From a virus, in the IMG/VR virus record IMGVR_UViG_3300025679_000110, positions 1 to 22,979 of that record: a stretch of DNA of 22,979 nt; one strand, written 5' to 3'. The notes under the pieces are model-generated. The model was not told the origin of the DNA and searched no databases. It worked only from the letters and a program-made list of their open reading frames with translations. A program made the position numbers and the translations under genes. Below are positions 770-22,581 of the stretch, one piece after another. Every line of letters starts with the position of its first letter. The stretch's first letter is position 1.

Positions 770-2915
770 TTGGCACCTCATTGTTATAAATTTCAAGTTC
801 TGCGAAATTACTTCCTATTTTACATTCGACTTTGAAGTTAAATACTGCATCATACTTATAATACTTATTTAATAAGTATTTAACATTACACATTATATCA
901 CATAATGCGGGTATGTGTATATGTTCCGTGCCTTTTTTTACATAAAAACTGAGTGAATCGTGTATCTGCCGTACCATTTTTAATTCGGTGTGGTGTTGAA
1001 TTACATATAGCGTACACTCACTAGCAGCAGCGAGGACTAAGTCCCCAGCAGTGCCCTGTATATGGTAATTTTTTGTTTCCGTTGTCGAATATCCACGTCT
1101 AAGTTTACCCCATTTATCCAGTCTACCTGTTTCTTCAAATGAAAATGTATGTTTCAAGGGGCTTAGGTAGGTACCAAAATGACGATATTCCCCATTCATA
1201 TATTGTTTATTCCCTGCCTGATCAAATATTGGTAACAATTCTAACCCTGCTTGAAACCTTCTTCCTCCTTTACTACTTTTGGAAAAATGCATTTCTCTTG
1301 ATAATTGCTGATTTTCACTAAGATTTGCATAAAGTTTATCATTGAAGGCTTTCACACCGGAGTATATTTCGTCTTGTGAAGCAAAAATAGTTTTTACGTC
1401 ATCTATATCAAGCCCTTCTGCTTCAGCAAGTGAAGCCGCACCACCTCCATATGCCCGCTTAAAGTTAACTCCCTTAGCTTTTTTGCGCATTAGCACCCAA
1501 TGGGGGTCTTTTTGTATTACAGCTAATTGATAAATTTCCTCATACGATTTACCTTCTGATAGACGTGGGAGCCAAGATACTGCACGACAGTGTAGACATA
1601 CTCCCGATAAAAGATCATGTGTAAGATTCGTATCCCCTGTTACTAGTGCGGTTATATGCGGTTCTAAACTAGAATAGTCGATGTCACATGCTAGCCAACC
1701 CTCAGGGGCTACTAATTGTCCCTGTATAGGCACAAGCATTTCTCCGCTAGCTGGAACATTTTGTTGATTTGGCCTACTACTCGATAGCCGGGAAGTTTCT
1801 GTAGCTGTAGTATTATAATTTGGGTATAATAGTCCACCAACACTAAATCTTAAGAAAGGTTCTAAATATGTAGAACACATTTTCCCGTATGTCATAGCTT
1901 TCTTTTGTAATTCACAATATTTAATAACTAAAGGATCTTTACAATCTTTATATATTTTGTGTATAACGGCATCTTCCGTTACGTAAACTCCCGGTTTCTT
2001 GGTTTCCTCGGAATAGTATACAGGATTTAATTCAAGACCTTTAATATGTATTTCTTTTAGTATTGTTTTAGATTTTGGGTTGCCATTTTTGTAAAATCCA
2101 TCTTCTACTTTTTCTTTAATTTCGAAAGCACCTCCAAACAACATGGCCGATTTTTGTTTGGGAGAGTTAATATTGAAAACCCCTAATCGTGAATCCCATA
2201 ACTGCCGGGTTAAGTCTGTAGCTTCTTGTAGATAATGCAGAGATTTAATTTTAAAATCCTTTAATGTTTCCTGACATTTATGTTCATCAATTTGAATGCC
2301 TGTATTCTGCATTTGAATAACAGCTAAAAGTCCCCGCATTCGGGCTTTAATTAAATCAAGCATTCCTAACTCTTTTGCTTTTTTATACTGTTTAGAAAAT
2401 ATTCGCAATGTTGAACTACCATCTCCTATACAATACTTTTCATATAAAGCGAAAAGTCTTGGATGGGTGTATCGAGCAGCTAATATTTTGTCTGCACCTA
2501 TCCCCGCTTTGAACAAGTTAGATATTCTATTTTGCTTGACCCTTTCCCCAAGATAGATATCTTGCAATTCTGCCAATGATGGGTATTTGTGCCTTTGTGA
2601 TGACAAAATGTACTCTGCTTCCGCTGTATCCCATATTGTATTTTCGGGATTACTGAGATAACTCTGTAAAGCACTGGTGCGCCAGATATACCCGAGGTCG
2701 AAAGCGATATTATGCCCAATGATAATATCACACCCAACAAAAAAACTGCTGCTAATTGTGCGATTAAATCCTGCAAGTTCATGTTTAATTGTGATTGCAT
2801 CGGGATGTCCCCCATAAATTATTGTGTAAAAATCATTTTCTGGGTCTTTGCTAGATGGCCCATGTATTTCTCTATTTCCTGTGGATGTTTCTAAGTCCAA
2901 AACTATTGGATACAT
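735..2915 (-). CDS. family A DNA polymerase with 3'-5' exonuclease domain
   Basis: Replicative DNA polymerase of the PolI/T7 type, 726 aa. Exonuclease domain: Exo I LDLET (D7, E9), Exo II GHNIAFDL (about 67-74), Exo III YCIGDGSS (about 161-168). Polymerase domain: TSRLSSSRPNQQNVP (about 374-388), motif A DYSSLEP (D413, E418), motif B RKKAKGVNFKRAYG (R477, K481, F485, Y489) and motif C IHDS (D653). Two departures from the usual signatures are visible: motif C is HDS rather than HDE, and the usual TGRLSS is TSRLSS. Start: ATG 2915 (MYPIVLDLET) has GGGAGT upstream and puts Exo I at the normal distance from the N-terminus; the frame is open to an ATG at 2945 that lacks such a site. It lies in an operon with helicase and SSB. 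Confidence 0.95.
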   Translation of the reverse strand: MYPIVLDLETSTGNREIHGPSSKDPENDFYTIIYGGHPDAITIKHELAGFNRTISSSFFVGCDIIIGHNIAFDLGYIWRTSALQSYLSNPENTIWDTAEAEYILSSQRHKYPSLAELQDIYLGERVKQNRISNLFKAGIGADKILAARYTHPRLFALYEKYCIGDGSSTLRIFSKQYKKAKELGMLDLIKARMRGLLAVIQMQNTGIQIDEHKCQETLKDFKIKSLHYLQEATDLTRQLWDSRLGVFNINSPKQKSAMLFGGAFEIKEKVEDGFYKNGNPKSKTILKEIHIKGLELNPVYYSEETKKPGVYVTEDAVIHKIYKDCKDPLVIKYCELQKKAMTYGKMCSTYLEPFLRFSVGGLLYPNYNTTATETSRLSSSRPNQQNVPASGEMLVPIQGQLVAPEGWLACDIDYSSLEPHITALVTGDTNLTHDLLSGVCLHCRAVSWLPRLSEGKSYEEIYQLAVIQKDPHWVLMRKKAKGVNFKRAYGGGAASLAEAEGLDIDDVKTIFASQDEIYSGVKAFNDKLYANLSENQQLSREMHFSKSSKGGRRFQAGLELLPIFDQAGNKQYMNGEYRHFGTYLSPLKHTFSFEETGRLDKWGKLRRGYSTTETKNYHIQGTAGDLVLAAASECTLYVIQHHTELKMVRQIHDSLSFYVKKGTEHIHIPALCDIMCNVKYLLNKYYKYDAVFNFKVECKIGSNFAELEIYNNEVPNETVNSISTIY

Positions 2916-4645: not shown

Positions 4646-4763
4646 ACTCTATCCTTTCGAGAAAATTAACTAAATATAAAACAAGTGTACTGATTACTAC
4701 TATCCAGACACAAACCATAAATATCAGAACAAATCCCCCAAATAATACTACTAATTTTAACAT
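4581..4763 (-). CDS. small membrane protein, 60 aa
   Basis: A 60-residue protein with one long hydrophobic segment (about residues 3-33, LKLVVLFGGFVLIFMVCVWI onward) followed by a basic tail. ATG 4763 overlaps the stop codon of the AAA+ gene (ATGTTAA) with AGAGGAAA upstream, and its 3' 65 bp overlap the helicase start in another frame. The coupled start and coherent membrane topology support a real gene. It could anchor replication to the membrane or be a host-interacting peptide; nothing in the sequence decides. Confidence 0.6.
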   Translation of the reverse strand: MLKLVVLFGGFVLIFMVCVWIVVISTLVLYLVNFLERIEYDNIKSNKSCIRDYIIKKFKC

Positions 4764-5734
4764 TTTTCTATTTCCTCTTCTAAATTGGAATTAAAAAAAT
4801 CAAAATAAGGAGGCAGTGCATCAAATTCATGCTTATCAATAAGTTTATGTATTTCTTTTGTCAGCATACGTACACCTTGTTCGCTTTTTATAGCTGTCTT
4901 AGCAATAGATAATAATACATCTTCTGTAAGTTGTAGATCATATACATCATAATATTGCAGGATATCTAAAGCTACAGGGATTATATGACGAACCAAAATA
5001 TTACAATAGTCTTGTATTGTCAATTCATCTAATCGTACAATTGAGTCTATACGCCCCACTAATTCAGGGATAAGTCCAGCTTTGACTATAAGTTCTTCGT
5101 AATTTACTTCAGTTATATTTGTCTGTTGCTGACTAGCAAATCCAAAAAGTTTATTAGTGTTTTTCCTTTCTGCACTCAACATCTCAGTGAAAGCACCCGC
5201 AAATATAAATGTAACCCCTTTTATTTCTGTCTTACCATTAATTAATTGCAAAAGATTTGATTGCACGTGTTTATTCCAATTGCCAGAACTTTCAAAAGAA
5301 AGTGCTAATTTGTCAACTTCGTCAATCAACACAATTGTTTGTTTCATAATTTCAGATGCACTAAAATATCCTTCTGAGTGATTTGACCAATACGCACAGT
5401 TGCTTTCAATTTCTTTTATCATATTTTTTATCGTAAGTCCTCCTGAACCGGCTCCAGAGGGGAGAATTTGTGTAGCATCAAAACGTACTAATGGAAAATC
5501 ACATACTTCCTGAAGACACTCCACAAGAAATGTTTTTCCTGATCCACTTCCACCCAATAATAAGACATTTTTTAAAGGGACTAACTTATCTGTCATCCCT
5601 AGATTAAATTCTTGATGCCACCGTATTCTACTACGATTTACCGCATTGATTAGGATTCTTTTGGCAGTTTGATGCCCATATACTTTTTTATTCAATTCCT
5701 CTAATATTTGCAAATTTGTGATATTTGTTTTCAT
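4757..5734 (-). CDS. ClpX/HslU-like AAA+ ATPase
   Basis: A 325-aa AAA+ protein. Motifs: N-terminal LNKKVYGHQTAKRIL as in ClpX/HslU, Walker A GGSGSGKT (61-68), Walker B IVLIDEVDKLA (134-144), sensor 1 FIFAGAF (176-182), GLIPELVGRID with the arginine finger R228, and sensor 2 GVRML (R289). The N-terminal zinc-binding domain of ClpX is missing. The substrate-gripping pore loop (GYVG in ClpX and HslU) is replaced by GAGSGG (about 94-99), with no aromatic residue. Start: ATG 5734 preceded by AAGGGGAA; the upstream extension to 5818 lies in the promoter and terminator region. It heads the leftward helicase-polymerase operon. A phage HslV-like peptidase is encoded at 16939, so a protease partnership is possible but unproven; a role in replisome remodelling is equally plausible. 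Confidence 0.88.
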   Translation of the reverse strand: MKTNITNLQILEELNKKVYGHQTAKRILINAVNRSRIRWHQEFNLGMTDKLVPLKNVLLLGGSGSGKTFLVECLQEVCDFPLVRFDATQILPSGAGSGGLTIKNMIKEIESNCAYWSNHSEGYFSASEIMKQTIVLIDEVDKLALSFESSGNWNKHVQSNLLQLINGKTEIKGVTFIFAGAFTEMLSAERKNTNKLFGFASQQQTNITEVNYEELIVKAGLIPELVGRIDSIVRLDELTIQDYCNILVRHIIPVALDILQYYDVYDLQLTEDVLLSIAKTAIKSEQGVRMLTKEIHKLIDKHEFDALPPYFDFFNSNLEEEIEKC

Positions 5735-5773: not shown

Positions 5774-5803
5774 TATAACTGAGGATAAATGTAGGAATAA
5801 GAG

Positions 5804-5834
5804 AAATAAAAAAGCCACTTATTAGGTGGCTTTT
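5804..5834 (-). terminator. intrinsic terminator of the 5810-6039 RNA
   Basis: Nine-base-pair stem AAAAGCCAC/GTGGCTTTT (5810-5818 with 5826-5834) with a 7-nt loop. Read on the minus strand the stem is followed by TTTTTTATTT. It would stop transcription coming from the ncRNA and lysozyme side just before the next promoter. On the plus strand only TTTT follows, so it may work weakly both ways, but no plus-strand gene needs it. Confidence 0.8.
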
Positions 5835-6039
5835 CTGGGAAGTCATGATTACATTGGGTAACTAATAATCCACTTCCCTCTCATGTGAGATTTAGATAGC
5901 TTTTGTAGTACGTCTACTCGAGGTGGGCACTGAGTCCGAGCTTATGTGAGGATATACCTCACGGCTTTCCTTTGCTATCGACCTCCGAGGGGATAACACC
6001 ACTCTATTTACTTTTCAACTCCTGAATTAGATTGAATTA
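5810..6039 (-). ncRNA. structured noncoding RNA, about 230 nt, unknown class
   Basis: A near-consensus promoter (6046-6074) and an intrinsic terminator (5804-5834) bracket about 230 nt with no plausible ORF on the minus strand. It is richer in G+C than its neighbours and folds well by eye: hairpin GTGAGG/CCTCAC (5946-5962); hairpin GTAG/CTAC (5905-5917); helix GATAGC/GCTATC (5974-5979 with 5895-5900); and CTCGGAGGT/ACCTCGAG (5981-5989 with 5917-5924, one bulge). The last two cross, giving an H-type pseudoknot. A further stem GGGAAGT/ACTTCCC (5837-5843 with 5872-5878) lies just before the terminator. I recognise no tRNA, tmRNA, RNase P or riboswitch signature. It could be a trans-acting RNA or a leader that controls readthrough into the polymerase operon. 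Confidence 0.7.
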
Positions 6040-6045
6040 CTGTTT

Positions 6046-6074
6046 AGTATATACTATCCTATTCTTTTTGTCAA
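6046..6074 (-). promoter_or_regulatory. strong sigma70-type promoter for the structured RNA
   Basis: Minus strand TTGACA (6069-6074), 17-bp spacer, TATACT (6046-6051). It overlaps the 3' end of the lysozyme gene, and the predicted start point near 6039 begins a stretch with no ORF. Confidence 0.8.
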
Positions 6075-6663: not shown

Positions 6664-6918
6664 TCAATTAATGGTCGTCTGGGCATAGTTCCAGTAATCG
6701 TCTATATTCTTTCTGTTTTCCTCGGCAACTAATTCATCAAATTCAAGTTCATCTATTCTATGCTTCAGCAAGAGTCTTATTGCTTTTACAACTACAAAGA
6801 AGTCCTTTGCATATTGCAAAAGACTTTCTCTATGCTCTCGTAACACTTGATAATAGACTAATAACTCTTTATTGTCCATTACTAACAATTCCTCTTCTGT
6901 TTTCAAGTTGGATATCAT
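6664..6918 (-). CDS. hypothetical helical protein, 84 aa
   Basis: Charged, leucine-rich and probably helical or coiled-coil (LLVYYQVLREHRESLLQYAK), with an acidic C-terminus. ATG 6918 overlaps the TGA of the preceding gene (ATGA), suggesting coupling; an internal ATG at 6879 with GAGGA upstream is an alternative start. It lies 10 bp before the lysozyme gene. No family recognised. It is not obviously a spanin or holin, because no membrane segment is present. Confidence 0.6.
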   Translation of the reverse strand: MISNLKTEEELLVMDNKELLVYYQVLREHRESLLQYAKDFFVVVKAIRLLLKHRIDELEFDELVAEENRKNIDDYWNYAQTTIN

Positions 6919-7247
6919 TTATTTATTTCCCTTTCAATAATACAAAATAATTCTTCATATTCATAGCTGTCTTTCGCGAGCCATTCCAGGTTCTCTATTT
7001 TATTGTTTAAGAAATTATTATCCTTATGTTTCACAAACCATTTCCTTCTCGACTTCCAGCCCAAATACGTTTCGGCCAGTACCCTATCAACAGCAAACCA
7101 TGTTCCACTGGTTGTTTGAAATGCCAGATTAAGATCCCTCTTCCATTTGCATGGCACAGGCGTAAGCATAGAATTCTGGCTTTTAAAAACATAACCCTGT
7201 GGGCGAACATAATAACCTAACATATTTCTTGCTGCTTGCATGTCCAT
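6915..7247 (-). CDS. degenerate HNH_3-like protein, 110 aa
   Basis: The C-terminal half matches the HNH_3 pattern of phage homing endonucleases: VDRVLAETYLGW (about 53-64), then VKHKDNNFLNNKIENLEWL (about 72-90). The usual VHRLVA histidine is aspartate here, while the second histidine (KHKD) and the NN..NLEW motif are kept, so catalysis may be lost or altered. Start: ATG 7247 (MDMQAARN) has TGGAGA upstream; the frame is open upstream to 7355, but that part lies in the structured RNA and has no good start. The gene follows the 7265-7537 RNA element. It could be a DNA-binding regulator derived from a homing endonuclease. Confidence 0.65.
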   Translation of the reverse strand: MDMQAARNMLGYYVRPQGYVFKSQNSMLTPVPCKWKRDLNLAFQTTSGTWFAVDRVLAETYLGWKSRRKWFVKHKDNNFLNNKIENLEWLAKDSYEYEELFCIIEREINK

Positions 7248-7264
7248 TACTTTTCTCCAGGCAA

Positions 7265-7537
7265 TAAAACGACTATTATGAAGGGTAGTTCTGGCCCTAT
7301 ACGTCAGGGGATTTCTTTTTTCTCCTACCACAGCTTTACCAGCCCCGCATTGCAAGTGCTTATACTTGCCCAGTCATGCGTTAAGACCGCCCTATAAAAT
7401 ATAATTGCCAGAATATCTGCTGTGTATCACACCAATTGCGGTGTACCTGCACCCTTAACAGGGCTATGGTAGGAGCACTATTCTCGATTGTTATTTAGAC
7501 ACGTTAAGAGACATAAGTAAGCCATTCGTGTTGTAAT
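7265..7537 (-). ncRNA. structured RNA element, copy 1 of a two-member family
   Basis: Transcribed on the minus strand from the promoter at 7544-7572. It is collinear with the element at 18729-19020: CACGAATG (7530-7523), AACGTGT (7505-7499), AGCCCT (7465-7460), AGCAGAT (7421-7415), TAGGGC (7394-7389), CTTAA (7385-7381), GCTGGTAAAGCTG (7343-7331) and TATAGGGCCAG (7301-7291). Shared helices: P1 ACACG/CGTGT; P2 TCTC/GAGA (7511-7508 with 7485-7482), crossing P1; P3 CTCCTACC/GGTAGGAG (7475-7468 with 7329-7322), closing a central domain with hairpins CCCT/AGGG, ACACC/GGTGT and GCAAGT/ACTTGC. The 3' end is placed before the ribosome binding site of the HNH-like gene; no terminator is visible inside, so it is either a leader or a processed RNA. 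No known class recognised. Confidence 0.75.
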
Positions 7538-7543
7538 AATTAA

Positions 7544-7572
7544 ATAATAACAGATAACAAATAAATAAGCAA
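7544..7572 (-). promoter_or_regulatory. leftward promoter of RNA copy 1 and the HNH-like/lysozyme genes
   Basis: Minus strand TTGCTT (7567-7572), 17-bp spacer, TATTAT (7544-7549). The conserved RNA block CACGAATG begins 13 bp downstream of the -10, nearly the same distance as at the promoter of RNA copy 2. Confidence 0.6.
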
Positions 7573-13263: not shown

Positions 13264-13299
13264 TAAGCTTAAGTGTAAGCTTAAGTGTAAGCTTAAGTG
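13264..13299. repeat. three tandem 12-bp direct repeats
   Basis: TAAGCTTAAGTG is repeated three times exactly; each unit contains the palindromes TAAGCTTA and CTTAAG. It sits between the terminator and the hairpin block, outside any gene. This is iteron-like, so protein binding or an origin function is possible. Confidence 0.85.
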
Positions 13300-13321
13300 A
13301 AAGCAAGCATTAGTGACTTAA

Positions 13322-13608
13322 GACATATGATTATGTCGTAGGCATATATAAGCCTCCTTTCGTTGGCCTTTAAGAAATTAATAATCTTTATTCATACCAA
13401 AGGTATTCATGACGGGATACGCCCCCCAACCGATGGTTGGATGGTCGGTGCCTAAGCCTCCGGCTATAAAACAAAAGAAAACCACTTAGGGCATGCCGTT
13501 GGCACAAAGAAACAGACCCTTATAATGCTGCTAGCATTGGGTCTGAGGTGAGGAAGGGAGGAGATGGTTCGGGCGGCTCGTCATCCCTGACTCGCCACTG
13601 TTAGTGGC
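13322..13608. other. gene-free block with many short hairpins
   Basis: No convincing ORF on either strand, and G+C clearly above the surroundings. Perfect small hairpins: GACATA/TATGTC (13323-13338), ATACC/GGTAT (13396-13408), CCAACC/GGTTGG (13427-13441), TGCC/GGCA (13493-13503), AGACCC with AATGCT (13514-13544) and GCCACT/AGTGGC (13594-13608). A longer pairing is GTGCCTAAG with CTTAGGGCA (about 13448-13456 with 13486-13494, one bulge). It could be an RNA gene, the 3' region of the leftward operon, or a replication or recombination site; I cannot tell which strand matters. Confidence 0.55.
13504..13545 (-). terminator. possible terminator of the leftward methyltransferase operon
   Basis: On the minus strand CAGACCC/GGGTCTG encloses AATGCT/AGCATT (13513-13545), followed by TTTCTTTG. 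The U tract is imperfect, so moderate support. It is the first such structure after the last leftward gene. Confidence 0.5.
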
Positions 13609-13716
13609 TCATTTGTCCATCTTGTTGTAAATAATAACTAATACAACTAATAATATTATACATATAGATATACTCAGTGAAAAATTCTTTTCCCCTATAC
13701 TTAGTAACATTCCCAT
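13609..13716 (-). CDS. small membrane peptide, 35 aa
   Basis: ATG 13716 has AAGGAG 8 nt upstream, located inside the last codons of the methyltransferase remnant. The peptide has one transmembrane segment (LSISICIILLVVLVIIYNKM). No family recognised. Its ribosome binding site lies in the remnant, which may explain why that short frame has been kept. Confidence 0.55.
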   Translation of the reverse strand: MGMLLSIGEKNFSLSISICIILLVVLVIIYNKMDK

Positions 13717-13717
13717 T

Positions 13718-13822
13718 TTATATACTCCTTAATATGTGTGCGATTACATCAACGGTGAACCCAGCCTTTTCCAAAGCACAATAAGCCATTGCACATCCGT
13801 CAAATAAACTTAAAATATTCAT
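13718..13822 (-). pseudogene. internal-deletion remnant of a C5-cytosine methyltransferase
   Basis: A 34-codon ORF whose first 21 residues (MNILSLFDGCAMAYCALEKA) match the N-terminus of the intact methyltransferase at 14781-16331 and whose next residues (FTVDVIAHIL) match its C-terminal motif X (GNGFTVDVIAHIL). All catalytic motifs between are gone. Nucleotide sequence differs from the intact gene at many silent positions, so it derives from an older or different paralog, not a recent copy. ATG 13822 overlaps the upstream TGA (ATGA), exactly as the intact gene does with its own neighbour. It cannot be an active methyltransferase; the frame may persist to carry the next gene's ribosome binding site. 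Confidence 0.85.
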
Positions 13823-14064
13823 TTCTTATCCTTAATAAATTTTCGTCTTTCTGGTTTATATATTAAAACTTGTTCATAACTTAAGCCAGAAAAACCGGCA
13901 CCAGATATACAAACGCCCTTATCACTGTAAATTTGGGCTGAAAATTCTGTCGTATCAATAGATTCCCAATAATAAGCCGCCACATAAGGCACAGTGTTTG
14001 GTAGTAAATTTATTAGGTGTTTTTTAATGTTGCACGCCTGTTCTTGTATACTTAATTTATCCAT
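13819..14064 (-). CDS. hypothetical protein, 81 aa
   Basis: ATG 14064 with AAGGAGA upstream. The start (MDKLSIQEQACNIKKHLINL) is helical and the middle (YVAAYYWESIDTTEFSAQIY, then GVCISGAGFS) looks like beta strands; the tail is basic (RRKFIKDKK). No family recognised. It lies between the Dam-like gene and the methyltransferase remnant on the same strand. Confidence 0.6.
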   Translation of the reverse strand: MDKLSIQEQACNIKKHLINLLPNTVPYVAAYYWESIDTTEFSAQIYSDKGVCISGAGFSGLSYEQVLIYKPERRKFIKDKK

Positions 14065-14103: not shown

Positions 14104-14784
14104 TTACATAGTAAACAGTTTTTCTACTGTAGGTGCTTTCTTATTTTTTAAATTAGGATTTATTGTTTCTTTTTGCCAAACACAAACAAAATCACTAGGC
14201 GCAGTAAATTCTGATACAAATACCTTGTGTCCTTCTTGTATTTTCTCTTTACACCACTGCCAAAACTTGTTATGATCTATACTGTAACGATATTTTGATG
14301 TTCCTTGATAGGGTGGATCACAGTAAATAATAGAGTTTTTAGGTAACCTAATTTCATCATAACTACAATTAATAAATTTAACATCTTTCCAAAATGGGTT
14401 TTGTTTTATAAACGACCTATAAACTTCCGCTGTAGAGTCTTTATTTTTACTTTGCCCAAACCCATGCCCCCAATTACCACCAAAAGCAAGGAAATGACTG
14501 ATATAACCAATATAGTGCCTGTCTGTGCGAGTCAAGTCGCATTTGCTTTTAAAATACTCTTCTCGAGTAATGTGTTCTGGCGGAATCCAGCCCTTCTGCC
14601 CAGCCTTGTACATAGCAATCAGATGTTCATCAATATCAGCAGCCATTCTATTGCCTTGGACATGAATTAATGTATTAGCACCACCAACAAAAGGCTCCAC
14701 ATACCATTGTCCTTCTTTCCTGTCTCTAAGTATGATAGGCAGTATTTCCTTCGCTATACGTCTCTTAGATCCCATGTACCTCAT
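14104..14784 (-). CDS. Dam-type N6-adenine DNA methyltransferase
   Basis: A 226-aa class D12 adenine methyltransferase. N-terminal MRYMGSKRRIAKEILP, the AdoMet-binding YVEPFVGGANTL (28-39), and the catalytic YCDPPYQGT with DPPY at 156-159. The architecture (motif X, I, target region, IV) fits Dam; the length is slightly short of Dam's usual 260-280 aa. Start: ATG 14784 overlaps the TGA of the C5 methyltransferase (ATGA). Together they would modify phage DNA and protect it from host restriction; recognition sequence cannot be read from here. Confidence 0.9.
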   Translation of the reverse strand: MRYMGSKRRIAKEILPIILRDRKEGQWYVEPFVGGANTLIHVQGNRMAADIDEHLIAMYKAGQKGWIPPEHITREEYFKSKCDLTRTDRHYIGYISHFLAFGGNWGHGFGQSKNKDSTAEVYRSFIKQNPFWKDVKFINCSYDEIRLPKNSIIYCDPPYQGTSKYRYSIDHNKFWQWCKEKIQEGHKVFVSEFTAPSDFVCVWQKETINPNLKNKKAPTVEKLFTM

Positions 14785-16331
14785 AATACACCTCCCAAAA
14801 TATGCGCTATCACATCCACAGTGAATCCGTTGCCTAATATTTTATAACGTTGTGTATTAGAAACACCTGATGTATATCCATCCTTTAATGTTTGTAATCG
14901 TTCACATTCTACAGGGGAGAGTTTCCTGTAAGTATTTAAATTTTCCCCCGTCTTTGTAAATACAAGCTGTCTGCGGCATTTTGTCTGGTATTGCTCTAAT
15001 GACGCCCCTTTATAATAATTTGCATCAATGCAATAACTCTTATATCTATCTGTCCATACTAAAGCATCTTTTGCTACAGTAGATAAACAATTACTCTTTC
15101 CGTCTAACCTAGGTTCAATGTATTGCTGTGTAGGGATATCTGAGTTATAGTCATCCCTTTTTCCTTCTACATTGATTTTACGCCCTACCATACGGCAGCC
15201 TAGTTGTTCATTACCTTCTAAAATATCTTTTAATAAAATCCCTTTATCTTCGGGTTGTGTAACACCTAATTGTTTATAGTAGTATGTTTTTTGGAGTTGC
15301 ATTGCCGACACAAAACTTGTAAATTCTCTAATATATTCCCCCCACCTCTCGTCAACGGTATTATGTGGTCTATTGTCAAATCTTCCGTCGCAAGACAGAC
15401 AAGACATTTTTCCATATTTAACAACGGTTTCAAGTACCTTCTTGCTATATATCCCTGATGCCTTATTGTCTTGAGTCTCTTTGCGTCTGATTTCGCGGCA
15501 ACTTCCTTTCCTTTCGGTGTCTGTCTGTATACCCTTTGGTAAGTTAATAGTTTCTCTGAGTTTTGTTGCACATATTTCGTTTGGTAAATCTTTTTCGTTT
15601 CTTTGTTCCGATTCGCATCGTTTTGCTTTTTGTTCTTCTCTGCACAAAGTTGCGAACATGTCTTGGTAGTTCCTGGCCGAGTGATTTTCAAATACTCTAT
15701 TTGACAAATTTTGCACGTTAGTTTGTCGTCCTTGTGGTTTGCCCAGTATCGTGCTTTCTCCCTCGCTCTGTGAGCATTCTTGTACGCCTCGCTTCTCATT
15801 TTCATCCCCTAACTGACAATGCAAACATTTAAAATCATCAACCTTACAATGTTGCCCTACCCAATACAGTCGTTTGCGACTCTGTGCAGATACTAGCGCA
15901 GAATCGATCATTATAGGCTGTACACCAAGTACTTCTGATATTATATCTTGATATTCCTGTTTCATTTTAACATTCTCAAATAAGAAATATTTTGGTTTAC
16001 AATATTTAAGAATTTCTACAGCTTTCCAGAATAGACCACTGCGCTCTCCTTGTAACCCCTTTTGTTTGCCGGCAAAGGATAGGTCCTGACATGGGAATCC
16101 GGCTATAATTAAGTCCAAACGAGGAAACTCCCAATCATAACCAGGAGAAAAATCCCAATTATTAAGATTCATGATATTGCCCATTTGAATTATTTTAGGA
16201 AAATTATCTAGGGCAACTTTGACAGCGTATTTGTCAATCTCACTGGCATAATAGTTATCTACTTTAATTCCAGCTCTTTCAAGAGCACAATAGGCCATTG
16301 CACAACCATCAAATAAACTTAAAACATTCAT
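14781..16331 (-). CDS. C5-cytosine DNA methyltransferase carrying a 194-residue insertion
   Basis: A 516-aa cytosine methyltransferase. Motif I LSLFDGCAMAY (4-14), motif IV GFPCQDLSFAG with catalytic C81 (78-88), motif VI FLFENV (117-122), motif VIII SALVSAQSRKRLYWVG (144-159), and motif X GNGFTVDVIAHIL near the C-terminus. Between Q160 and LGVTQPEDKG lie about 194 residues with no family character; they correspond to an HNH gene read in another frame. Removing codons 15851-15270 joins YWVGQ directly to LGVTQPEDKGILLKDIL, the usual arrangement, giving about 322 aa. The frame stays open throughout, so a protein with a long insertion before the target-recognition region may be made. ATG 16331 overlaps the upstream TGA. 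Confidence 0.88.
   Translation of the reverse strand: MNVLSLFDGCAMAYCALERAGIKVDNYYASEIDKYAVKVALDNFPKIIQMGNIMNLNNWDFSPGYDWEFPRLDLIIAGFPCQDLSFAGKQKGLQGERSGLFWKAVEILKYCKPKYFLFENVKMKQEYQDIISEVLGVQPIMIDSALVSAQSRKRLYWVGQHCKVDDFKCLHCQLGDENEKRGVQECSQSEGESTILGKPQGRQTNVQNLSNRVFENHSARNYQDMFATLCREEQKAKRCESEQRNEKDLPNEICATKLRETINLPKGIQTDTERKGSCREIRRKETQDNKASGIYSKKVLETVVKYGKMSCLSCDGRFDNRPHNTVDERWGEYIREFTSFVSAMQLQKTYYYKQLGVTQPEDKGILLKDILEGNEQLGCRMVGRKINVEGKRDDYNSDIPTQQYIEPRLDGKSNCLSTVAKDALVWTDRYKSYCIDANYYKGASLEQYQTKCRRQLVFTKTGENLNTYRKLSPVECERLQTLKDGYTSGVSNTQRYKILGNGFTVDVIAHILGGVL
15266..15799 (-). CDS. HNH endonuclease nested in the C5 methyltransferase gene
   Basis: A 177-aa HNH nuclease in a different frame of the same strand. 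A first zinc-binding part has C29, C32, C48 and C52 (LTCKICQIEY, KTCSQLC). The C-terminal HNH domain is complete: KCLVCLATEDLTIDHIIPLT with C132, C135, D144, H145, then NLQVLCRQCNSKKH with C164, C167, N168. Start: ATG 15799 with AGGGG at good spacing (ATG 15805 is closer to it). The stop codon is formed by bases of the methyltransferase codons for LG, just past the insertion end. Cysteine spacing and the HNH core are coherent, so this is a real gene, probably a homing endonuclease that invaded the methyltransferase. Confidence 0.88.
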   Translation of the reverse strand: MRSEAYKNAHRAREKARYWANHKDDKLTCKICQIEYLKITRPGTTKTCSQLCAEKNKKQNDANRNKETKKIYQTKYVQQNSEKLLTYQRVYRQTPKGKEVAAKSDAKRLKTIRHQGYIARRYLKPLLNMEKCLVCLATEDLTIDHIIPLTRGGGNILENLQVLCRQCNSKKHTTINN

Positions 16332-16525
16332 TTTAAAGCCTCCGATTTTCTTATTTGTTCCGCTCTAAGAAATACCCTCCACGATTCTTCAAAAAGGCAT
16401 TTTCTACAAAGGTGGGGTATATAAGTATCCTCAGGTGTAGGGGGTATACTTGCAGAGGCTGTAACAGTATTTTCCAAAGGTATGGGTGTGAGATGACGAC
16501 AATTAACACATTCGAGAATATTCAT
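16328..16525 (-). CDS. small zinc-ribbon-like protein, 65 aa
   Basis: Two CxxC pairs, CVNC (6-9) and CRKC (40-43), separated by a proline/threonine-rich linker, suggest a small zinc ribbon; a basic helix follows (WRVFLRAEQIRKSEALK). ATG 16525 overlaps the upstream stop (ATGA). No family recognised. It may regulate or bind nucleic acid. Confidence 0.6.
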   Translation of the reverse strand: MNILECVNCRHLTPIPLENTVTASASIPPTPEDTYIPHLCRKCLFEESWRVFLRAEQIRKSEALK

Positions 16526-17803: not shown

Positions 17804-17831
17804 AGTATAGCATAAATTGACAAAAACACAA
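17804..17831 (-). promoter_or_regulatory. leftward promoter of the methyltransferase/HslV-like operon
   Basis: Minus strand TTGTGT (17826-17831), 16-bp spacer ending in TGC, TATACT (17804-17809). It overlaps the rightward promoter at 17817-17844, so the two may exclude each other. Confidence 0.6.
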
Positions 17832-17844
17832 GATATGCTATAAT
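17817..17844 (+). promoter_or_regulatory. strong rightward promoter of the NrdR-like/dUTPase genes
   Basis: Consensus TTGACA (17817-17822), 16-bp spacer ending in TGC, consensus TATAAT (17839-17844). ATG of the first gene is 33 bp downstream, with AGGGGA as ribosome binding site. Confidence 0.85.
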
Positions 17845-18694: not shown

Positions 18695-18722
18695 TTGACA
18701 TTTAATAAAAGTGTGCTATAAT
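18695..18722 (+). promoter_or_regulatory. strong promoter of RNA copy 2
   Basis: TTGACA (18695-18700), 16-bp spacer ending AAAAGTGTGC, TATAAT (18717-18722). The same AAAAGTGTGYTATAATG sequence recurs at the promoter at 19786-19813. Confidence 0.85.
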
Positions 18723-18728
18723 GATAAT

Positions 18729-19020
18729 AAAGGTTGGCACGAATGACAAGCTACATTGCCTAAACGTGTATAAACAATAATCGGCAGGAGCACTTGAATA
18801 TCAGCCCTCTTCGAGACGGAGGGCATGAATAATGCATATATAGCAGATTGCTAGCATGTCTTAATCGCTTTAGGGCTCTTAAGACAACAGAAACACATGG
18901 GGGACTGCGGCCTGTCAGTCAGTTAATACAGGAGCTGGTAAAGCTGGTATTCAAGGAACAAAGGAACAAAGAGCATACATAGGGGCTAGCACCGTCTCAA
19001 GTGATAGCTATGTCAAAAAT
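18729..19020 (+). ncRNA. structured RNA element, copy 2 of a two-member family
   Basis: About 300 gene-free nt between promoter and methyltransferase start. Blocks shared, in order, with copy 1: CACGAATG (18738-18745), AAACGTGT (18762-18769), AGCCCT (18803-18808), AGCAGAT (18842-18848), TAGGGC (18871-18876), CTTAA (18878-18882), GCTGGTAAAGCTG (18934-18946), ATAGGGGCTAG (18979-18989). Helices: P1 CACG/CGTG (18738-18741 with 18765-18768); P2 TGCC/GGCA (18757-18760 with 18783-18786), crossing P1; P3 CTTGAATA/TATTCAAG (18793-18800 with 18948-18955). Local hairpins: GCCCTC/GAGGGC (18804-18809 with 18819-18824), TAGCA/TGCTA, GTCTTAA/TTAAGAC, CCTGT/ACAGG, and ACATAG/CTATGT near the 3' end. It ends before GAGGAG of the next gene without a terminator, so it could be a leader. 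No known RNA class recognised. Confidence 0.8.
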
Positions 19021-19035
19021 AAAGAGGAGAAGATA

Positions 19036-19764
19036 ATGGATCTTTATCATGCAGACTGTTTTGATATATTCCCAACTATACCAGATAACAGTATAGATTT
19101 GGTTTTAACCGATATGCCTTATGGAACAACAGCATGTAAATGGGACACATGTTTAGACTTGGAACATATGTGGATAGAATTAAAGAGAATTGTTAAAGAT
19201 GACACTCCTATTGTGTTGACAGCAAGTCAACCTTTTACTAGTGTTTTGGTTAGTTCTAATATTAGAAATTTTAAATGTGAGTGGATCTATCAGAAAAATA
19301 GGGGAAGTAATTTTGCGTGTTTAAAATACACCCCCATGAAAGAACATGAAAGTGTGTTAGTGTTTGGAGCCAACAGAATTACTTATAATCCAATTATGCA
19401 AGAGCGAGCTCAGAGTGGAAAGGCTCGCGCAAAATACTTAGTTAACCCTAGTAATGGAAAAAGGGAAGCGTACAATAATCTAAAGTTAACTACCCCATTT
19501 AAAATGACAGATAGACGTTACCCAGGCAGTGTGCAAAAATTTAATGTAGAAGTAGGGAAACACCCAACACAAAAGCCTGTTGCTCTTATGGAGTATCTTA
19601 TCAAAACCTACAGCAACGGAGGTGATACAGTGTTAGATTTCTGTATGGGGAGTGGAACAACAGGTGTAGCATGCATGAATCTCAATAGAGAATTTATAGG
19701 AATAGAAAAAGAAGAGGATTACTACATTATAGCGAAAGAGAGGCTGTTGATTAATAAAGAATAG
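19036..19764 (+). CDS. N6-adenine/N4-cytosine DNA methyltransferase (beta-type)
   Basis: A 242-aa methyltransferase of the N6_N4 family with the order motif IV - target region - motif I. Motif IV is DLVLTDMPYGT (21-31), DMPY replacing the usual DPPY; HPTQKPVALMEYLI (about 175-188) and the AdoMet loop VLDFCMGSGTTGVAC (about 198-212) with the following E (FIGIEKE) are complete. It probably methylates adenine in phage DNA. Start: ATG 19036 with GAGGAG. It is the only gene directly behind RNA copy 2, so that RNA may control its expression. Confidence 0.92.
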   Translation: MDLYHADCFDIFPTIPDNSIDLVLTDMPYGTTACKWDTCLDLEHMWIELKRIVKDDTPIVLTASQPFTSVLVSSNIRNFKCEWIYQKNRGSNFACLKYTPMKEHESVLVFGANRITYNPIMQERAQSGKARAKYLVNPSNGKREAYNNLKLTTPFKMTDRRYPGSVQKFNVEVGKHPTQKPVALMEYLIKTYSNGGDTVLDFCMGSGTTGVACMNLNREFIGIEKEEDYYIIAKERLLINKE

Positions 19765-20595: not shown

Positions 20596-20844
20596 ATGGA
20601 TGGAACAACTTGGACATGGTTCAAAGGCGTATTAGCTTACGCTACAGTAGCTATAATGGGCTGGTTGTTTACATTACATCTAAAAGAGAAAGATAAAGTA
20701 TCTGGTTTACAAGCGCGTATTGAGAAATTGGAAATTACTACAGAAATAACAAAAGTTATGCTGAAACATTTATCAGAAGACATCGCAGAAGTTAAAGAAG
20801 GTGTTAAGCAATTAGTTGATAGTCAAGTTAGACGCAGAAAATAA
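20596..20844 (+). CDS. membrane-anchored coiled-coil protein, 82 aa
   Basis: One N-terminal transmembrane segment (WFKGVLAYATVAIMGWLFTL) followed by a long coiled coil (KVSGLQARIEKLEITTEITK and onward) and a basic end (SQVRRRK). Start: ATG 20596, just after the preceding stop. The layout resembles phage holin/antiholin or XhlA-like hemolysin proteins, or an inner-membrane spanin; the sequence does not decide. TAATG overlap couples it to the terminase small subunit. Confidence 0.6.
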   Translation: MDGTTWTWFKGVLAYATVAIMGWLFTLHLKEKDKVSGLQARIEKLEITTEITKVMLKHLSEDIAEVKEGVKQLVDSQVRRRK

Positions 20845-21260
20845 TGGGAGTTAAAAGTAAATACAAGCCTCGATACAGCAAAGCATTGCAAGAGGGATTA
20901 CGTAAAGATGGTCTCATTATAGAAGAGTGCTGTTTGCTTTGGGGTATTACAACTCCCACCTGGTACAACTGGATTGCTACAATTCCCAAATTTGCTGAAG
21001 CTGCTGCAATAGCAGAAATGGACTATCGAGCTTATTTTGCCAAGAAATTCCGTGAAAAGATGAATGGCACTAACAAAACTCCGGGTAATGCCGGTATGCT
21101 TATATTTGCTGCTAAGAATGTTATGGGCTGGGCTGATAAAGTGGAAACACATACTACTCATGACGACGAAGTTAAGATCATAAAAATAGAAATGCTACCA
21201 TCTAATCATGAGATTAAACAGATAGAAAATATTATTGATGTTGTAAGCGAAGATGTCTAA
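20844..21260 (+). CDS. terminase small subunit
   Basis: A 138-aa DNA-packaging protein. An N-terminal helix-turn-helix (KALQEGLRKDGLIIEECCLL, WGITTPTWYNWIATIPKF) and the typical small-terminase middle (NAGMLIFAAKNVMGWADKVE) with C-terminal oligomerisation/tail region. It overlaps the large subunit start by 8 bp. In the family it recognises the packaging site and stimulates the large subunit. Confidence 0.85.
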   Translation: MGVKSKYKPRYSKALQEGLRKDGLIIEECCLLWGITTPTWYNWIATIPKFAEAAAIAEMDYRAYFAKKFREKMNGTNKTPGNAGMLIFAAKNVMGWADKVETHTTHDDEVKIIKIEMLPSNHEIKQIENIIDVVSEDV

Positions 21261-22581
21261 AGAAATTACTATTGCGTTAACAAAAGCGCAGACAGAATTC
21301 GTCAATCTCACTAGCTCTTTTAGTTTGTTTCGGGGCGGATATGGTTGTGGGAAATCACATTTAATGGGCTTCTGTGCTACAAGAGATGGGTTTCATTCCT
21401 CGAATGCTATAGTAGCTTTATACGAACCCGACTACAATTTGATTAAGTCTGTAGCCATTCCGATGATGGAGTATTGGCTTAATGAATTTGGTGTTAGATA
21501 TACACTCAATAAACAAGACCACATTATATATACAAGTAGTAATTCCATTGGTGACTTTGTTTTTAAATCCATGGACGATCCCGATAAGCTCGTTGGTTAT
21601 GAAACTTATTCATCTCATATGGACGAATTAGACACACTCCCAATGGATAAAGCTGAAAGAATATGGCAGAAGGTTATGGGGCGTAATCGACAAAATCCCA
21701 AAGGATTACCCCAAGAACATAAAGTATGGAATGACGAATTAAAGAAATGGGAATGTACGAATAGGATGTATGCCTACACTACTCCTGAAGGTTATAAGTT
21801 TTGTTACAAAATGTGGATACAAAACAAAAACCCAGAATTTAAAAATGTGCAAGGTAAGACAAGTGATAACCCCACATTACGCGCATCTTATGTACGCCAA
21901 TTGTATGAGCAATACCCCGCCGAGTTAGCAAAAGCCTATCTTGAAGGTGAATTTGTCAATATGGCGAACAAGTCTGTGTATTATAATTATAAACGTGATA
22001 TTCACAACAGTATAGAAAGAATTCAAGATAAAGAAACTCTGTATATTGGGTGTGATTTTAATGTTGGTAAAACAGCCGCTACAGTGTATGTGCGGCGTAA
22101 CGGCGGTAGGGATTGGCACGCTGTAGCAGAACTTGTTAATTTACTAGATACACCTGAATTGATCCGAGTTATACAAGATAGATGGCAATCAAAAGATCAT
22201 CAAATTATAATGTACCCCGACAGTTCGGGCAGAGCTAGAGGCAATGCAAACGCTAATGTAAGTTCTATTGCGCTACTACATGCAGCACACTTCAGTGTAC
22301 GGGCAAATGCAAAAAATCCTCTTATTATAGATAGAACAACAGCGACAAACAAGATGTTTGCAGAGAATCGGTTATTTGTCAACCATATAGAATGCCCAGA
22401 AGTGTGTCGATGCCTTGAACAGCAATGTCTCGATAAGAACAATGAACCAGATAAACACAGCGGGCATGACCATCAAAATGATGCTAGTACATATCCATTA
22501 GCTTTTGAATGTGCTGTACAAAAACCTATTATCCCCATTAAATTTAATTTTATGTCCAAAGGCGCATTCCATGCCCGTTGA
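21253..22581 (+). CDS. terminase large subunit
   Basis: Packaging motor of 442 aa. ATPase domain: Walker A FRGGYGCGKSHLM (26-38, K34), Walker B SSHMDELDTL with D124 and E125, and the coupling-type AYTTPEG (174-180). Nuclease domain (RNase H fold): IGCDFNVGKTA with D268, MYPDSSG with D323, and SGHDHQND with D406/D410. Start: ATG 21253 inside the small-subunit end. The 3' end overlaps the next gene by 11 bp. It cuts concatemeric DNA and pumps it into the prohead. Confidence 0.95.
   Translation: MSKEITIALTKAQTEFVNLTSSFSLFRGGYGCGKSHLMGFCATRDGFHSSNAIVALYEPDYNLIKSVAIPMMEYWLNEFGVRYTLNKQDHIIYTSSNSIGDFVFKSMDDPDKLVGYETYSSHMDELDTLPMDKAERIWQKVMGRNRQNPKGLPQEHKVWNDELKKWECTNRMYAYTTPEGYKFCYKMWIQNKNPEFKNVQGKTSDNPTLRASYVRQLYEQYPAELAKAYLEGEFVNMANKSVYYNYKRDIHNSIERIQDKETLYIGCDFNVGKTAATVYVRRNGGRDWHAVAELVNLLDTPELIRVIQDRWQSKDHQIIMYPDSSGRARGNANANVSSIALLHAAHFSVRANAKNPLIIDRTTATNKMFAENRLFVNHIECPEVCRCLEQQCLDKNNEPDKHSGHDHQNDASTYPLAFECAVQKPIIPIKFNFMSKGAFHAR

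Follow-up and report, generated by a model that had tools for sequence, protein, structure and literature searches.

Two stretches on opposite strands of an uncultured phage's DNA raise the question of what a knotted RNA might be doing twice in a single phage record and, before that, whether it is one RNA at all. The DNA analyzed is IMG/VR virus record IMGVR_UViG_3300025679_000110 (22,979 nt, the whole of which is hereafter called the window), and a sequence-only reading of it had claimed that the two stretches make up a new paralogous structured-RNA family. That claim stands: an RNA of roughly 275 letters with a knotted fold is present twice in the record, it belongs to a set of six distinct homologous sequences without an Rfam match, and, as related phages keep the pairing despite changed letters, there is hardly any doubt that this is a real, so far undescribed structured RNA family. 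The initial observation is confirmed and is stronger than its reader could know.

Both elements lie where they had been placed, with the blocks and spacings described for them, and their ends could be refined (Table 1). Counted between their first letters, CACGAATG and AGCCCT are 65 nt apart in either copy; P2 reads TGCC/GGCA in copy 2 and TCTC/GAGA in copy 1, with 22 nt between the strands in both; and five of the eight P3 pairs originally quoted differ between the copies, all of them still being paired. P3 in full is a helix of 13 contiguous pairs (CTTGAATATCAGC/GCTGGTATTCAAG and CTCCTACCATAGC/GCTGTGGTAGGAG in the two copies), the 5' strand of which occupies element positions 57-69 in both; it is the top helix of each element, and, when the 3' region of the window copies was dinucleotide-shuffled 1000 times, one shuffle at most matched it. 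The elements had also been taken to be gene-free, and the ORF check found no convincing gene inside either of them, the sole ORF of at least 60 aa reaching into one being the HNH frame, whose likely ATG (7247) is outside copy 1. Folding energy is of no help (z = -1.4 for copy 2 and -0.2 for copy 1); the evidence for structure is covariation. Within copy 2, TTGCTAGCATGTCTTAATCG (18846-18866, +) repeats a conserved 5' motif of the relative L132, TTGCTAGCATTTCTTAACG, which may be due to chance (E 0.46).

Table 1. Coordinates of the two RNA copies, their helices, promoters and neighboring genes in the window.
Feature	Position	Strand	Remarks
Promoter of copy 2, sigma70-type	18695..18722	+	TTGACA-16 nt-TATAAT, 12/12, TG before -10
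RNA element copy 2	18737..19014	+	278 nt; ends from conserved GCACGAATG and 3' block position in relatives
Conserved 5' domain, copy 2	18737..18792	+	Putative P1/P2 H-type pseudoknot, A-rich third loop; alignment
P2 5' strand, copy 2	18757..18760	+	Partner 18783-18786
P2 3' strand, copy 2	18783..18786	+	Partner 18757..18760
P3 5' strand, copy 2	18793..18805	+	13 bp; partner 18943-18955
P3 3' strand, copy 2	18943..18955	+	Partner 18793..18805
Likely P5 5' strand, copy 2	18813..18819	+	GAGACGG, in GCCCT hairpin loop; partner 18992-18998; crosses P3
Likely P5 3' strand, copy 2	18992..18998	+	CCGTCTC, in 3' hairpin loop; partner 18813..18819
First gene behind copy 2, N6/N4 DNA methyltransferase (N6_N4_Mtase)	19036..19764	+	
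Terminase small and large subunits, downstream of copy 2	20844-22581	+	
Promoter-like sequence of copy 1	7544..7572	-	TTGCTT-17 nt-TATTAT, TG before -10
RNA element copy 1	7259..7531	-	273 nt
Conserved 5' domain, copy 1	7476..7531	-	Alignment; 59.9 bits with window-free model R2
P3 5' strand, copy 1	7463..7475	-	Partner 7322-7334
P3 3' strand, copy 1	7322..7334	-	Partner 7463..7475
Likely P5 5' strand, copy 1	7450..7456	-	AAGGGTG; partner 7281-7287; alone not better than chance
Likely P5 3' strand, copy 1	7281..7287	-	Partner 7450..7456
First gene behind copy 1, HNH endonuclease (HNH_3)	6915..7247	-	

Pattern scans covering 2.9 million IMG/VR viral contigs revealed the element in five further contigs (L117, L132, L136, L138, the last being identical in L140, and L143), which, together with the window, gives six distinct element sequences with member lengths of 273-347 nt. 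A loose pattern (CACGAATG-N12-22-AACGTGT) returned mostly chance in-gene matches, yet gave the first true homolog, L117; the family signature, ACACGAATG-N17-AACGTGTNTAAAYAAYAAT with a covarying P2 and then P3, is found in the six distinct sequences, and a P1-independent pattern, allowing for a compensated P1, added a single new match (L184) that is a chance coding hit. The covariance model R2 of the 5' domain, built from the relatives only with the window left out, recovers copy 1 and copy 2 at 59.9 and 48.4 bits, respectively, the next chance match scoring 16.3. Rfam offers nothing even at relaxed thresholds: Rfam 15 gives no gathering-score match in the window, just two sub-threshold chance matches over the window elements at E up to 10, and zero matches over the elements of four relatives. 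No true match to the element was seen among isolate phages (blastn) or GTDB genomes (two chance coding hits only in the latter), and all known members of the RNA family come, within the range searched, from a single clade of uncultured phages. The carriers long enough for comparison have in common a DNA polymerase A (~40% identical to that of the window), DnaB helicase, AAA protein and primase, and several of them a lysozyme as well.

Across the six distinct sequences, 98.2% of the P1, P2 and P3 cells are paired, as opposed to 70.5% in shuffled sequences and 27-52% with slid partners; changes on both sides are seen in 12 of the 19 pairs, and the covariation score is 0.846 vs. 0.244. P2 is paired in 23 of 24 cells, its central pair (22-49) being G-C, C-G, U-A or A-U among the members and the single mismatch, G-G, occurring in L117/L136. 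P3 forms in all six sequences (59 of 60 cells), and all 10 counted pairs change on both sides somewhere, counts that are favored by the procedure, since the strands were placed by picking the best helix per sequence at that position; an independent shuffle test gives 0.000-0.003 for four sequences, 0.026 for L117 and 0.043 for L132. P2 and P3 are established by computation.

The crossing of P1 and P2 into a pseudoknot, as initially claimed, fared only partly as well: the complementary strands (ACACG/CGTGT) are there, whereas P1 is invariant except for one G-U and thus gains nothing from covariation, so that its pairing, and hence the pseudoknot, is considered likely on account of complementarity. 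Two features that the sequence-only reading did not mention are the promoter sequences just upstream of the elements and a likely second crossing, P5, which would link positions 76-87 to the 3' hairpin loop across P3. Its letters differ by subgroup (GAGACGG/CCGTCTC, AAGGGTG/TACCCTT, GATACC/GGTATC and AGAGGGG/CCCCTCT). Of the single sequences, copy 2 alone reaches significance for P5 (0.006), L117 coming near 0.07 and the others giving no significance, so it is the shared position that speaks for it. Likewise probable is P4, in which the conserved 3' end ATTGCCTA would pair with an internal GGCAAT; L132 and L138 have it in its best form, and in copy 2 and L143 it is weak or missing. Among the known classes considered, an HDV-like ribozyme is out by strand order, only 4 nt separating the P2 5' strand from the P1 3' strand, which leaves no room for the P3 hairpin that the HDV-like class has at that spot; tmRNA and tRNA were dropped, as neither gave a match.

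The extent of the element is best seen in L117 and L136, which differ at ~3 of ~347 RNA positions; the contigs as a whole are 94% identical on average, and the flanks within ~300 nt on either side only ~75-80% close to the RNA. The near-identity falls off sharply at ACACGAATG and CTATTGCCTA, which indicates that the entire RNA is one unit. Its presence is patchy: wider searches via the primase and AAA protein led to relatives without the RNA, and in one of them (G012) the syntenic intergenic site holds a promoter but no RNA. Such patchiness of a sharp-ended unit, with an HNH gene adjoining copy 1, is what might be expected of a mobile RNA, intron-like or homing-associated, inserted behind promoters; yet the flanks show no conserved target or splice-site-like bases, Rfam (group I and II introns included) gives nothing, and the copies seen are always just behind a promoter and never within a gene, which leaves this reading improbable. 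Group I and group II introns are themselves out, as Rfam recognizes no catalytic core. The element resembles HEARO, the IscB-type omega RNA, in being a structured RNA 5' of a gene that is, in the case of copy 1, an HNH one; it is no HEARO RNA either, as an IscB/IsrB gene is missing, Rfam gives no HEARO match and the following gene varies (HNH_3, N6_N4_Mtase, Mom).

To which genes, then, is the RNA attached? All seven copies are preceded by a sigma70-type -10 box, the end of which is 7-15 nt away from the element (14 nt for copy 2); these are consensus matches and not mapped starts. In most members the 3' end is followed after 10-25 nt by a start codon, and in five of the six contigs it abuts a gene's ribosome-binding site. 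Behind copy 1, the HNH gene is followed by an 84-aa ORF, lysozyme, AAA protein, DnaB helicase and DNA polymerase A, down to position 735; the window has a PolA operon (-) opposed to a methyltransferase-terminase operon (+), with one RNA copy each; in the relatives, one copy heads a replication operon (primase, AAA, DnaB, PolA), the next gene being Mom in L117 and L136 and 75-82-aa unknowns in L132 and L143. The following genes differ, which ties the RNA to the head of the operon rather than to any one gene. The operon-head position is established computationally, and the promoter position by consensus.

A leader regulating the translation or stability of the first gene (a riboswitch, an autoregulation site for a phage protein or 5' end protection) would suit the distance to the start codon, and regulator-binding pseudoknot leaders are known in phages, the mRNA leader of T4 gene 32 having one. 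The element shares a pseudoknot in a phage mRNA leader with T4 gene 32-type leaders, but it is far larger, has no tie to a single gene and carries its 5' domain at the transcript start and not near the start codon. The first gene varies (methyltransferase, HNH, Mom, others), no consistent helix masks the ribosome-binding site and L138 has no adjacent gene, all of which makes such a role rather unlikely. Somewhat better placed, while still a minority option, is a stand-alone noncoding RNA, cut from the operon mRNA or ending before it, that would act in trans, e.g., as an early decoy or an RNP scaffold directed at host functions. It would fit the sharp 5' and 3' ends, the near-identity of L117 and L136 over the whole RNA, the likely P4, which would anchor the 3' end inside the RNA, as is typical where an RNA has a defined end, the ~90 nt after the RNA of L138 that hold no gene, and the large, multiply knotted fold, a trait shared with the large ornate RNAs GOLLD, ROOL and OLE. 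GOLLD and ROOL have been found in phages (PMC12286853), and the element differs from all three in being shorter, of other sequence and without an Rfam match. Against action in trans, no intrinsic terminator is listed at the 3' end of either window copy, ahead of its first gene, the 3' end abuts the ribosome-binding site in most contigs, and the role requires no two copies at two operon heads.

The replication genes adjoining the RNA, together with the strong promoter, the complex fold and GC-skew minima near copy 1 and near copy 2, also bring to mind a priming transcript akin to RNA II of plasmid ColE1, i.e., a folded pre-primer passed to the phage DNA polymerase A. There is little to recommend this: the skew signal is confounded, because the skew sign follows gene direction there, a terminase operon stands behind copy 2, the phages have a primase gene of their own, and iteron-like repeats (three 12-bp direct repeats, AAGCTTAAGTGT) lie elsewhere, at 13264-13304. 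These repeats and a GC-rich, foldable, gene-free stretch at 13380-13620 (z -1.8) are possibly an origin or a further RNA.

The reading we favor, tentatively and by analogy, is antitermination, the RNA serving as a transcript leader that would act in cis to modify RNA polymerase, put-like in action without being a member of put. A sigma70-type promoter would drive each copy, and, with the -10 box 7-15 nt upstream, the RNA would be the first product of the host polymerase. The nascent RNA would fold into the 5' H-type pseudoknot (P1/P2) and then the P3-closed domain, which P5, and probably also P4, would connect to the 3' end of the RNA itself; while transcription runs on from the RNA into the operon, the folded RNA, kept in cis, might stay bound to the elongating host RNA polymerase, which would thereby resist pausing and termination and read through the whole replication or terminase operon. 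Action in cis on the elongation complex is suggested because the RNA makes up the first transcript bases, heads each of the opposed operons, is indifferent to the next gene and is present in a modular manner. The homologs with covariation, the promoter placement in all seven copies and the lack of a listed terminator before the first genes agree with this, as do copy numbers: two in the window with its two opposed operons, and one in G001 (41 kb), where nearly all genes are on one strand and the copy is at the strand head if the contig ends are joined, a joining suggested by gene order and not proven by an end repeat.

In the lambdoid phage HK022, termination is suppressed by two put RNAs, each placed behind an early promoter, with no phage protein needed; either one is ~70 nt long and has two stem-loops (PMC9378689). 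The put mode of read-through involves binding to the beta' zinc-binding domain. The likeness to putL/putR lies in there being two copies in one phage, each behind a sigma70 promoter (the early class being presumed here), a likeness limited to the window, as the relatives have one copy; in the position at the transcript start, putL likewise starting at the first transcript bases; and in the proposed use of a nascent structured RNA that needs no dedicated phage protein. In contrast to put, the element is 273-347 nt long, probably has P1/P2 and P3/P5 crossings and lacks the two-stem layout, and its function would be put-like only by conjecture; size and fold thus argue that it is not put, even if put-like in action. 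Antitermination is also challenged by terminator predictions that give no clear need for it (zero intrinsic terminators on the G001 sense strand, some in the window, G002 and G004), a survey that neither supports nor excludes it; by promoters that do without the RNA, namely the syntenic one in G012 and a strong one in the window at 17817-17844; and by a length of ~275-350 nt vs. ~70 nt for put, which is more than polymerase binding alone should need. The fuller version, i.e., a new cis-acting RNA class with a fold unlike put, which makes the polymerase termination-resistant and was duplicated when the genes split into opposed operons, is a shade more doubtful still.

Several other features were encountered along the way. 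Between the lysozyme and AAA genes of the window (5800-6074, -), ~235 gene-free bases, with a TTGACA-17-TATACT promoter on one side and a strong intrinsic terminator (5836-5808) on the other, fold better than 200 of 200 shuffles (z -2.9) and look like a separate small RNA without an Rfam match. A C5 methyltransferase gene remnant at 13720-13824 (-) has its first codons running into the apparent last ones with the middle missing, its first 77 nt being 82% identical to the start of the intact gene (16257-16333); the intact gene (14781-16331) has, by its family match, a ~200-residue insertion and contains, in another frame, an ORF of 179 aa (15266-15805, -) that looks HNH-like and is possibly a nested homing gene. 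Among the relatives, the RNA-free L147 carries on its lysozyme side (4747-5000, -) a gene-free leader of another kind, ~200 nt long and preceded by a TTGACA-TATACT promoter; it has a GCCACCC/GGGTGGC hairpin and then ATGAATA, as copy 2 does. In G004, positions 2788-2847 (+) of L165, towards the lysozyme, contain a tRNA-like stretch of 60 nt that scores 43 bits with the Rfam tRNA model and is not called by ARAGORN; and the DNA polymerase ORF of G004 (L194, 4251-7367, -), at 1038 aa, is ~300 aa longer than its relatives, with an alignment gap near residue 110, the extra length probably being an intein or another insertion.

This much covariation from so few sequences is uncommon for new structured RNAs. 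To our knowledge, very few RNAs reprogram RNA polymerase alone, and the antitermination idea is directly testable, because the RNA makes up the first bases transcribed from each of the opposed operons, whatever gene comes next; two natural paralogs and several natural variants are at hand as test material. Should the RNA act in trans or in translation instead, it would still be an undescribed large phage RNA.
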